NCBI GenBank assembly: GCA_016195085.1
Contig: JACQAG010000077.1
Coordinates: 1 to 46,509 of the forward strand
Direction of reading: 5' to 3'
From: Pseudomonadota bacterium
Lineage (GTDB): Bacteria; Pseudomonadota; Alphaproteobacteria; SHVZ01
Length of the DNA stretch: 46,509 nt
How positions within the stretch are numbered: the stretch's first letter is position 1; the number at the start of each line of letters is the position of its first letter. Below are positions 24,796-28,580 of this stretch, in pieces. The position numbers were made by a program, and so were the translations under genes. Under the pieces are notes generated by a model. That model did no database searches, was not told the DNA's origin, and saw only the letters and a list, made by a program, of their open reading frames with translations.

Positions 24796-25284
24796 CTATT
24801 CCACCGGATAGTCGTAGCGGATGAAGCCGTTGAAGCGTGCCAGCGTGTCGTAAAGGGCGCGGGCCCGCGCGTTGTCTTGCCTGGTCTGCCAGTAGAACCG
24901 GGGGGCGCCCCGCTGGCGGGCCGCTTCCGCCACCCGTTCGATCAGCGCGCGGGCCACACCCCGGCCGCGCGCCCTCTCGTCGACGAACAGATCCTGCAGA
25001 TAGCAGATGTCGTCCATCCAGACATGAGCGTGGAAGAGATAGTGCGCGATTCCGACCAGTGCCCCATCGAGATGCGCGCCGACTCCGTAAATGCCGTCGC
25101 CGCGGAGCAAACGCTGCCACGTCGCCTCATAGCGGGATGGAGGCAGCTCGGTCTCGTAGAAGGTCTTGTAGCCGCGCGCGAGATCCTCCCAACGTGCGCG
25201 GTCCGCCGGTGCCAGCGGAGTGATCGCGATGGCGGCCCGGCCTAGCGCAGGAGCAGCACCGCCCACGGACTCAGTCGGCGGCAT
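24796..25284 (-). CDS. GNAT-family N-acetyltransferase
   Basis: A 162-residue acetyltransferase. The acetyl-CoA-binding motif ERARGRGVARALIERV (the R/Q-x-x-G-x-G/A loop) follows the strand CYLQDLFVDE, and the late WQTRQDNARARALYD helix fits the GNAT core. The start is uncertain: ATG 25284 is used, which overlaps the stop of the upstream PNPOx-like gene by 14 bp; ATG 25311 and GTG 25266 are alternatives. This overlap implies the two genes are co-transcribed and translationally linked. The substrate is unknown. Confidence 0.85.
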   Translation of the reverse strand: MPPTESVGGAAPALGRAAIAITPLAPADRARWEDLARGYKTFYETELPPSRYEATWQRLLRGDGIYGVGAHLDGALVGIAHYLFHAHVWMDDICYLQDLFVDERARGRGVARALIERVAEAARQRGAPRFYWQTRQDNARARALYDTLARFNGFIRYDYPVE

Positions 25285-25963
25285 AGTTCGCCAGCAGGTC
25301 GTCGACGGCATCAGCGGTGGTGAACGCCTTCAGATAATCCGGCAGCGGCGTCGCGGGCTTCAATCTGGGATCGGCGATGGCCTGGCCGGCAACGGTCGTG
25401 AGCGGCACCACGCCGGCCCAGACGGGCAGCGCATAGTCCGGCTCGTCGTCCACCGGCGGGCCGGTGCGCACCTTGGCGACGGCGTCTTCGATGGTCATCG
25501 CCATCACCGTTGTCGCCTTCAACTCCTGCGCGTTGGGCGGGCGGATCTCTGCCCAGCGCCCGGGTGCCACCCGCTCGACGAAGGCTTCGAGCGCCTTCAG
25601 CTTGGCGGCGCCATCTTCGAGCTTATGCGCGGTGCCGAAGGCCAGCACCGAGCGATAGTTGATGGAATGGTGGAAGCCGGAGCGGGCCATGACCAGCCCA
25701 TCGACGTGGGTCACGGTCAGGCACACCTTGAGGCCCACCGATTGCGCGCGCAGCATGCGGCTCGCCGAGGAGCCGTGCCAGTACAGCGCCTCACCCTCGC
25801 GCCAGAACGAGGTCGGCGTCACATAGGGTTGTCCGTCGATGACGTAGCCGACATGGGCGATGAAGGCGGCATCGAGCACGGCGTGCACGGTCTGGCGATC
25901 GTAGTGCGCCCGCTTCGGCAGGCGCTTGATGCGCGAGCGCGGGGTCGGCGTGTAGGCGTCCAT
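25271..25963 (-). CDS. Pyridoxamine 5'-phosphate oxidase-like FMN-binding protein
   Basis: A 230-residue flavin-binding split-barrel protein. Landmarks are HVGYVIDGQPYVTPTSFW, LYWHGSSASRMLRA, the central VCLTVTHVDGLVMARSGFHHSINYRSV, and the C-terminal PVDDEPDYALPVWAGVVPL. These match the broad pyridoxamine 5'-phosphate oxidase-related family (often called flavin-nucleotide-binding), not classical PdxH. AGGAG before ATG 25963 supports the start. It is divergent from a MocR-type regulator gene with 103 bp between them that contain a repeated operator-like site, so it is the likely target of that regulator. Confidence 0.88.
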   Translation of the reverse strand: MDAYTPTPRSRIKRLPKRAHYDRQTVHAVLDAAFIAHVGYVIDGQPYVTPTSFWREGEALYWHGSSASRMLRAQSVGLKVCLTVTHVDGLVMARSGFHHSINYRSVLAFGTAHKLEDGAAKLKALEAFVERVAPGRWAEIRPPNAQELKATTVMAMTIEDAVAKVRTGPPVDDEPDYALPVWAGVVPLTTVAGQAIADPRLKPATPLPDYLKAFTTADAVDDLLANYAAD

Positions 25964-26020
25964 GGCTGCTCCTCGATCTCCCTTGCAAGGCCGACCATCG
26001 CCCATAAAGTGGTTGGAAAG

Positions 26021-26053
26021 TAAGGTCCAGATTTGCTTGAATGATAGTACCAG
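26021..26053 (-). promoter_or_regulatory. Candidate MocR operator: two CTGG-type sites in direct repeat
   Basis: On the minus strand, CTGGTACTAT (26053-26044) and CTGGACCTTA (26030-26021) are direct repeats 23 bp apart, close to two helical turns. The second resembles the CTGGACYTAA half-site reported for TauR-type MocR regulators. It lies between the divergent MocR and PNPOx-like genes. Confidence 0.5.
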
Positions 26054-26066
26054 TTTGGAGACCAAG

Positions 26067-27566
26067 GTGACCGCCACCCCACGCACCGACCGCTCGGCTC
26101 GCCAGCCCCTCCTATCGCTGTCCCTCGACCCCGAGGGTCCGCTGCCGCTGCATCGCCAACTCTATCAGCAGCTCCGGGAGGCGATCCTGGGGCGCCGCTT
26201 GACCTCAGGCATGCGGTTGCCGTCGAGCCGGCTCTTGACCCAAGAGCTCGGCATCTCCCGCAACACCGTGCTCGCCGCCTTGGATCAGCTGACCGCCGAG
26301 GGCTACCTCGCACCCCGGCGGGGCTCGGGCAGCTTCGTGGCCGCACTCGCCCCGGAGCCGGCTCTGCCGGCGCGGCAGCCGACGCCGCGGCCTGAGAAGG
26401 CCGCGACGCTGAAACCGTCAGGGCGCAGCCGACAGCTCGCCGTTTCCGCCCCGCAACGCCTCGTCACCGGCGGCGCCTTTACACCGGGGTTGGCCGATCA
26501 TCGCGAGTTTCCCTTTGCCCTGTGGTCGCGGCTGTTGGCGAAATCCTGGCGGGATCCCCCGGCGGCTTTGGTCGGGCCCGGCGAGGCGCAAGGGCATCAG
26601 GGCTTGCGCCGCGCGATCGCCCGCTATCTAGGGGCGATGCGCGGCGTCGTCTGCGCGCCGGAGCAGGTGTTCATCGTCAACGGCGCCCGCCAGGCGGTGG
26701 ATCTGGCGGCGCATGCGCTGATCGACCACGGCGACATCGCCTGCGTGGAGGAGCCGGGATGGCCGGGGCTGCGCGGTACCTTGGCGGCGAACGGCGCGCT
26801 TCTCGTCCCGGTGCCGGTCGACGAGTTCGGCATGACGGTGGCGAGCGGGCTTCGAGTCCGCCTCATCGCGGTCGCCCCCTCGCACCAATATCCCTTGGGC
26901 GTCACCATGAGCTTGGCGCGCCGCCTCGAGCTCATCCAATGGGCGAAGCGGAGCGACGCTTGGATCCTCGAGGACGACTACGATAGCGAGTTCCGCTATG
27001 GCGGCCGACCGCTCGCCGCCCTCCAGGGCCTCGATGAGGAAGGCCGCGTCGTCTATGTCGGTACCTTCTCCAAGGTGCTGTTCGCCTCGCTGCGCCTGGC
27101 TTATCTGGTGGTGCCGCCGGAGCTCGTCGACATCGTGGCGAGGGTCCGCCCCAGCCTCGATGACTATCCCTCCGCGATCGCCCAGCCGGCGCTGGCGGAG
27201 TTCATCGACGCCGGGCATTTCGTCGCCCACATCCGGCGCATGCGCCGGCGCTATCAGGCGCGCCAGGAAATTCTGCTGGATGCGGCCGGGCGGCATCTTT
27301 CCGGTCTTCTCGACATCGAGCCATGCGCAGCGGGCATGCATCTGGTGGCCCGGCTCGGCCGGGCCCTCGCCGGCCGCCAGGATGACCGCACTCTCTCAGG
27401 GCTCGCCGCCGCTTCGGGCATCACCGCACCGGCGCTCTCCAGCTACTTCCACGGGCCGGTCGGCGCCCAAGGCCTGCTCCTCGGCTACGCGCCGGTGGCC
27501 GAGGACGAGATCGAGCCTGCGGTCAGACGGCTGGCGCAAGCGCTCGGCGCTGCTCGCCAAGGGTGA
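26067..27566 (+). CDS. MocR/GabR/PdxR-type transcription regulator (GntR helix-turn-helix plus aminotransferase domain)
   Basis: A 499-residue regulator. A GntR winged helix-turn-helix fills about residues 20-90 (PLPLHRQLYQQLREAIL, then RLPSSRLLTQELGISRNTV), followed by a fold-type I aminotransferase-like domain that binds PLP through Lys336 (VGTFSKVLFASLRLAYL). Such proteins sense PLP or amine substrates. GTG 26067 is used: it has GGAG six bases upstream and starts the conserved HTH region; the longer frame to 25962 enters the neighbouring gene. The divergent PNPOx-like gene and the repeat at 26021-26053 point to regulation of vitamin B6-related or amine metabolism. Confidence 0.9.
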   Translation: MTATPRTDRSARQPLLSLSLDPEGPLPLHRQLYQQLREAILGRRLTSGMRLPSSRLLTQELGISRNTVLAALDQLTAEGYLAPRRGSGSFVAALAPEPALPARQPTPRPEKAATLKPSGRSRQLAVSAPQRLVTGGAFTPGLADHREFPFALWSRLLAKSWRDPPAALVGPGEAQGHQGLRRAIARYLGAMRGVVCAPEQVFIVNGARQAVDLAAHALIDHGDIACVEEPGWPGLRGTLAANGALLVPVPVDEFGMTVASGLRVRLIAVAPSHQYPLGVTMSLARRLELIQWAKRSDAWILEDDYDSEFRYGGRPLAALQGLDEEGRVVYVGTFSKVLFASLRLAYLVVPPELVDIVARVRPSLDDYPSAIAQPALAEFIDAGHFVAHIRRMRRRYQARQEILLDAAGRHLSGLLDIEPCAAGMHLVARLGRALAGRQDDRTLSGLAAASGITAPALSSYFHGPVGAQGLLLGYAPVAEDEIEPAVRRLAQALGAARQG

Positions 27567-28193: not shown

Positions 28194-28580
28194 CTAGGCC
28201 TCGGGCTTCAGCGCTGTCACCTCGATCTCGACCCTCATCTCCGGGAAGGTCAAGGGCGTGCAGATGGTGGTGTTCGCCGGCCGGGTCTTGTCGAAGTGCC
28301 GCTTCATCACCCTGGACACGGTCATGACGTCGGCGGGATCGGGCACATAGACCCTGACCCGGACCACGTCCTCCAGGCTGGAGCCGGCCTTCGCCAAGGC
28401 CTCGCGGATATTGGCGATCGCCTGTTCGCTCTGCGCTTCCGCACCGTCGGCGAAGGCTCCGGTCTTGAAGTCGGCGCCGACGGTGCCGCTGACGAAGACG
28501 AAGCGGCCATCGACGACGGCGCGGGCATAACCCGCCAGCTCCTCATATTTGGAGCCGGAATAGATCCATTGCCGCGCCAT
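28194..28580 (-). CDS. RidA/YjgF-family protein (Rid family, non-archetypal)
   Basis: A 128-residue trimer-type protein of the Rid family. The core has VDGRFVFVSGTVG, ANIREALAKAGSSLEDVVRVRVYV and the C-terminal PEMRVEIEVTALK. The arginine that the deaminase subfamily needs, usually in a R-x-R-S/T stretch near residue 105, reads RPANTTIC here, so Arg is replaced by Asn; the catalytic Glu in VEIE is kept. It is therefore more likely one of the Rid4-7-type proteins than an enamine deaminase RidA. It ends an eight-gene minus-strand operon, 30 bp after the binding protein gene. ATG at 28580. Confidence 0.85.
   Translation of the reverse strand: MARQWIYSGSKYEELAGYARAVVDGRFVFVSGTVGADFKTGAFADGAEAQSEQAIANIREALAKAGSSLEDVVRVRVYVPDPADVMTVSRVMKRHFDKTRPANTTICTPLTFPEMRVEIEVTALKPEA

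Follow-up and report, generated by a model that had tools for sequence, protein, structure and literature searches.

We analysed a 46,509-nucleotide stretch of an alphaproteobacterial genome (contig JACQAG010000077.1 of assembly GCA_016195085.1, Pseudomonadota bacterium, SHVZ01; hereafter the window), and found a predicted three-box operator between the gene of a MocR-type transcription factor and a divergent pair of genes. The pair encodes a PF12900 protein, labelled 'pyridoxamine 5'-phosphate oxidase', and a GNAT N-acetyltransferase. With a probability of about 0.68, these genes form a local regulon, in which a MocR that binds pyridoxal 5'-phosphate (PLP) controls an Anf3-type heme-flavin oxidoreductase and the acetyltransferase through this operator. 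The support comes from sequence comparison: the operator, its association with these genes, and the conservation of the PLP lysine and of the heme site. The direction of regulation, the ligand, heme binding, the substrate and a role in detoxification are what we infer.

The predicted operator is a 58-bp site (26002..26059, minus strand) defined by a comparative footprint. Box 1 (AAACTGGTAC, 26047..26056, minus strand, CTGG core at 26053-26050) is followed by its direct repeat, box 2 (AATCTGGACCTTA, 26021..26033, minus strand, CTGG core at 26030-26027). The footprint also contains an inverted box 3, 18 bp past box 2 (about 26004..26015, plus strand; CCAACCACTTTA on the minus strand), which a preliminary description of this DNA had overlooked. 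That description had reported CTGGTACTAT and CTGGACCTTA as direct repeats 23 bp apart. Both do lie on the minus strand with CTGG cores at this distance, and they prove to be two of the three boxes of the conserved predicted operator. The footprint consensus reads approximately AAAnTGGtCC, then 23 bp on AAATTGGatCTTTT, then 18 bp on an inverted gAACCAcTTT. The site at the locus scored 42.8 bits in a leave-one-out test; none of 100 first-order resamples of that region exceeded 8.5. Two 10-mers could arise by chance, yet a chance origin is disfavoured because the three-box site is conserved among loci.

The repeats had also been called TauR-type, which fits the single boxes but not the whole operator, since its arrangement is direct-direct-inverted. 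TauR of R. capsulatus is described as binding direct repeats of CTGGACYTAA (PMC5320631), which CTGGACCTTA resembles; here a third, inverted box is present, and no taurine genes were recognised among the part of the open reading frames (ORFs) near the site covered by family searches. The direct-direct-inverted arrangement is the commonest operator structure of MocR regulators in Table 2 of PMC5320631, with 245 regulons.

To compare loci, we combined 47 from named genomes with matches in 20 of 60 genomes (own genome included). The footprint set held 46 proteobacterial upstream regions; actinobacterial loci, which have a different regulator and motif, five duplicate or fragment loci, and one with too short an upstream region (L026) were kept out of the operator statistics. 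A locus was called MocR-linked if a MocR lay upstream at E<1e-60. We found that 21 of the 24 MocR-linked loci have a leave-one-out score of at least 17, and 3 of the 22 loci without an adjacent MocR a score of at least 15, both cuts having been chosen after the scores were known. The association is strong by Fisher's test (p 7e-7), in which the loci count as independent though they are related. The operator is also kept, with scores of at least 27, in four of the six loci with a co-directional mocR (L005, L006, L052, L068). Taken together, the repeats appear to belong to a conserved operator associated with these genes. In three loci (L019, L021, L022) the operator precedes the PF12900 gene although the available DNA shows no MocR, which suggests control in trans. 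The actinobacterial PF12900 loci (L029, L033-L039, L043) have a divergent GntR/MocR-like gene and another intergenic motif, roughly TAGCACAA ... TATGNACTAG; in seven loci of Streptomyces type, an EamA-like gene lies on the far side of the regulator.

The PF12900 gene (25271..25963, minus strand) probably does not encode a vitamin B6 enzyme of the kind its label implies. Pfam gives only PF12900 and a sub-threshold PF01243, and the best solved relatives by sequence are Anf3 (6rk0, E 8e-63, 47% identity) and MSMEG_4975 (4ybn), both of which hold flavin adenine dinucleotide (FAD) and heme. Anf3 is described as a protein with FAD and heme b, in which the heme sits where PLP sits in a true pyridoxine 5'-phosphate (PNP) oxidase, His70 holds the heme iron, and Arg21 and Lys170 contact the propionates (PMC6579470). 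To align these residues we applied a numbering offset of 2, which fits the residues named in that paper except Phe95, where Gly was found. In our alignment of 62 proteins (the same five duplicate or truncated loci, and L068, which is too short, were left out), the equivalents are His63 in 62/62, Arg14 in 61/61 (one gap) and Lys164 in 62/62. The equivalent of Anf3 Tyr22 is not conserved. An AlphaFold2 model of the protein (mean predicted local distance difference test score, pLDDT, 88) found the same two structures as top fold matches, with template modelling (TM) scores of 0.85/0.91 for 6rk0 and 0.85/0.92 for 4ybn. Next came an archaeal putative flavin mononucleotide (FMN)-binding protein and NimA, and lower down heme-bound PaiB, piperazate synthases and an 'N-hydroxylamine dehydratase'. 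Thus the sequence, the heme residues and the modelled fold all point to a FAD and heme protein of the Anf3/MSMEG_4975 type.

The regulator (26067..27566, plus strand) combines PF00392 with PF00155, that is, a GntR winged helix-turn-helix with a fold-type-I aminotransferase domain, and its nearest solved structures are a B. clausii-type regulator (7pq9) and GabR. The PLP Schiff-base lysine Lys336, Asp304 and Arg343 are kept in all 24 aligned linked MocRs, and therefore the MocR should carry PLP. Among NCBIfam models, PdxR (NF052282) passed its cut-off of 320 with 418 bits; the rhizopine MocR model gave more, 478 bits, yet stayed below its own cut-off of 650.

The alternative that survives best, though we regard it as unlikely, is vitamin B6 homeostasis of the PdxW type, in which the MocR would sense PLP and control a second oxidase of PNP or pyridoxamine 5'-phosphate, together with an acetyltransferase of B6 vitamers. 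The passing PdxR score, the retained PLP lysine and a gene content like that of the predicted PdxW and PdxQ regulons all agree with it, but its enzyme does not: TIGR00558 (pdxH) has no match in the PF12900 protein, Pfam offers nothing beyond the matches given above, and the nearest relatives of known structure are heme proteins, with the heme of Anf3 at the place of PLP. A separate pdxH is present on contig C26 of the same genome (the only TIGR00558 match there at E<=1e-3), and pdxH is over its cut-off in 19 of the 20 genomes with PF12900 among the 60. Because of these two findings we rejected replacement of a missing pdxH as a role. The B6-oxidase reading therefore loses weight, since the heme site is conserved, the closest relatives contain FAD and heme, and pdxH stands elsewhere in the genome. 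The vitamin B6 pathway put forward in the preliminary description is thus not borne out, and that part of its interpretation is probably wrong.

We next consider the acetyltransferase gene (24796..25284, minus strand). The TGA of the PF12900 gene (25273-25271) lies within it if it begins at the ATG at 25284-25282, giving a 14-nt overlap; an alternative in-frame ATG stands further upstream, at 25311. Hpa2, thialysine and diamine acetyltransferases are among the closest GNATs of solved structure. In a locus from another family (L159) we found the identical three genes in identical order. The PF12900 and GNAT genes are separated by an ORF without Pfam match in L002 and by a PNPOx_N-like fragment in L026, and in L013 the gene immediately after PF12900 encodes a RimL-type GNAT. 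In three genomes of a sister genus (G001, G002, G004) the GNAT orthologue (63-67% identity) is on a different contig from the PF12900 gene, with a second, RimL-type GNAT after it (one of these checked by Pfam).

The regions upstream of such GNAT genes were scored with a three-box matrix of variable gaps, trained on PF12900 sites only. The sister-genus orthologues scored 17.0 (G001), 22.9 (G002) and 21.7 (G004), with boxes kept and varying spacers, and a 45% identical homologue in G006 scored 20.3. As a control, 4000 random 180-base segments gave a 99.9% quantile of 15.7; the three that reached 17 all come from one stretch of L023 (2.0-2.3 kb), immediately before the mocR of that locus. An earlier control of 1020 upstream regions was set aside, as operator loci were among them. 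At E<=1e-20, G004 and G006 have one MocR regulator each (assemblies 97% and 82% complete). Co-conservation of the three genes, which the preliminary description had named as a check, therefore holds in some relatives, adjacent in L159, with an ORF between in L002, and on separate contigs with an operator in others, whereas adjacency itself is rare.

A sequence model of the operator (R1), from which two of the 25 sites (L017, L023) were left out, gave 13 matches at E<1e-3 in the 60 genomes. Eleven precede a PF12900 gene, and all 11 are training sites. One non-training match (L121, G043) stands before an operon of RimL-type GNAT, EamA and RimI-type GNAT genes, and one (L122, G005:C44) between a divergent MocR and an extracellular solute-binding protein gene. 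As G043 has four MocR matches, the reader of its operon site is not singled out. In its own genome, the site at the locus is the sole R1 match at E<=10 by a model that misses divergent sites; R1 thus placed no operator at genes for PLP synthesis or salvage (pdxST, pdxK, pdxU). We also searched 288 genomes of class members, where 25 places were found at E<=1e-3: nine training sites, a copy of one (L160, equal to L007) and 15 others. Five of these 15 precede PF12900 genes with a divergent MocR, two precede RimL GNATs (one being the G043 operon again), five precede molybdopterin oxidoreductases and two transporters of the major facilitator superfamily (MFS), while one has a MocR alone recognised; the targets at L165 and L174 were checked by Pfam, and the remaining oxidoreductases and the second MFS gene were named by eye. 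This distribution suggests that related MocRs share the operator style. The three-box style before molybdopterin oxidoreductase genes was seen at L161, L165, L162, L169, L170 and, more weakly (E 0.0018), L123; with their divergent MocR, L161 and L165 may be read as a second MocR redox regulon. The short pattern STGGWMCY was dropped as a genome-wide probe, with 846 matches per strand.

Sites of this style before molybdopterin oxidoreductases are in line with an alternative still less probable than B6 homeostasis, in which an Anf3-like low-potential terminal oxidase or nitric oxide (NO) reductase would shield sensitive enzymes, the GNAT being incidental. The 47% identity is to a protein reported as an oxygen-consuming oxidase (Anf3 of A. 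vinelandii, PMC6579470), which also shares the heme His, Arg and Lys equivalents and, with MSMEG_4975, leads the fold matches. However, the distal Tyr103-Asn104-Phe105-Asn106 of Anf3 is replaced mostly by F-H-H-S (57, 59, 60 and 62 of 62 at residues 97-100), a loop nearly invariant in the 62 aligned proteins. The neighbours here are a MocR and a GNAT, and no nifH match was found in the genome (about 96% complete), for which reason protection of nitrogenase was rejected as a role. Moreover, the GNAT gene overlaps the PF12900 gene, and GNAT genes elsewhere carry the operator, which argues against an incidental GNAT.

Several observations weigh against the local regulon. Three MocR-linked loci score low: L023 and L002, with altered spacing as judged by eye, and L065, with extra intergenic sequence; the first two are also the remaining two of the six co-directional loci. 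Operators of like style precede molybdopterin oxidoreductase, MFS transporter and solute-binding protein genes, and the site alone therefore does not name its regulator. A consensus scan recognised no sigma-70-like promoter in 25900-26130, and a terminator scan alongside it found nothing; thus, the switch geometry proposed below is only inferred. For the GNAT, the best NCBIfam matches are aminoglycoside-type models far below cut-off. The middle box of the G006 site is poor, the sister-genus sites exceed background only with the variable-gap matrix (17.0-22.9 vs 15.7), R1 reported none of them even at E<=10, and 15 of the 19 GNAT homologues examined have no site (upstream score <=3.7), among them L088, the third gene of the G043 operon. 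Only 3 of 30 MocR-linked loci have a GNAT like that of the locus (phmmer, E<=1e-5) in the 2 kb downstream; six of the 30 were found via the operator, one of these (L160) repeating the site of L007, and many have only 1.5 kb of flank. This rarity and the silence of R1 would suit chance neighbours, with the MocR regulating its own gene as well as PF12900 and the GNAT carried along as a passenger, but this is the least probable of the alternatives, given the adjacent genes in L159, the boxes before GNAT orthologues on other contigs and before the G043 operon, and the RimL-type GNAT in L013. The alternatives are compatible with each other and with the regulatory half of the local regulon.

For the local regulon, we propose that a MocR dimer would bind the three-box operator between mocR and the enzyme gene pair. 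Box 1 touches the ribosome-binding site of mocR, and about 40 bp separate box 3 from the PF12900 start codon; boxes 2 and 3 stand just upstream of the enzyme genes. With boxes placed at both genes, one bound complex could set both directions. Both enzymes would probably share a class of nitrogen compounds, which the heme-flavin protein would act on by redox chemistry and the GNAT by N-acetylation. In GabR-like sensing, an amine is captured as an aldimine with PLP. Sensing of this kind would connect the PLP sensor with both enzymes, the acetyltransferase and the heme-flavin protein, whose fold family includes much N-O chemistry. The apo form of B. clausii PdxR prefers direct repeats and its PLP-bound form inverted ones, as told in PMC5320631; by the same logic, a ligand may shift the dimer here between the direct pair (boxes 1 and 2) and an inverted pair, and so activate or silence the two enzyme genes. 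In the relative G043, genes for another type of GNAT and for an EamA exporter also stand behind such an operator. Rather than vitamin B6, the enzyme pair more likely handles nitrogen-oxide compounds or unusual amines, and it may serve to detoxify them.

Known systems offer partial parallels. In Bacillus, PaiB, a heme-binding split-barrel protein, is paired with PaiA, a polyamine-type GNAT. The heme structure of PaiB (9VYC), however, has only 16-17% identity in the fold alignment, and the regulation differs. NimA and NimB (1W3O, 2FG9) show kinship in sequence and fold with a heme His at the equivalent place, but identity in the fold alignment is 22-25%, and the NCBIfam Nim models gave 28 and 26 bits, far short of their cut-offs of 270 and 260. 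NimB of C. difficile is reported to turn nitro groups into amines using heme and flavin (PMC10338468). In an open-licence PMC search for this gene set, only PMC5320631 among the matches listed bears on it. There, Suvorova and Rodionov (2016) present PdxW and PdxQ as MocR regulons predicted in silico, with putative PNP-oxidase 'pdxO' targets, RimI and RimL acetyltransferases and, for PdxQ, exporters of the drug/metabolite transporter (DMT) type. Our locus resembles them in gene content, and the regulatory idea was thus already in print; what sets it apart is a target that looks like a heme-flavin protein rather than a B6 enzyme.

The gene order, strands and coordinates given in the preliminary description agree with the sequence and the Pfam matches, with mocR divergent from the minus-strand pair, to which we add the overlap of the two genes. 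The mocR start is likely the GTG at 26067, with a ribosome-binding-like GGAG at 26057-26060 (plus strand) adjoining box 1, rather than the 25962 given by the ORF tool. A HicB-like antitoxin ORF (PF15919) lies directly downstream of mocR, from 27721 onward (plus strand). A RidA-type gene (PF01042) is nearby at 28194-28580 (minus strand), where R1 reported no operator; RidA occurs in some published MocR regulons.

These results bear on how such regulons are named. PF12900-family genes carry the name of pyridoxamine 5'-phosphate oxidase, and MocR regulons with such targets are classed under PLP metabolism. More tentatively, and with considerable doubt, the 'pyridoxamine oxidase' targets across a class of MocR regulons may be heme-flavin enzymes; the PLP of the MocR would then capture a primary amine or hydroxylamine and induce a heme-flavin N-O or amine oxidoreductase along with an exporter and one or two acetyltransferases, which together would make up a complete module for detoxification of nitrogen xenobiotics. 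Concrete assays could start from the operator, from the conserved heme site or from the putatively co-regulated acetyltransferase. Names like PdxW may be misleading for such regulons if their targets are heme-flavin proteins; in that case, the MocR ligand could be tested as an amine or N-hydroxy compound rather than as PLP supply.

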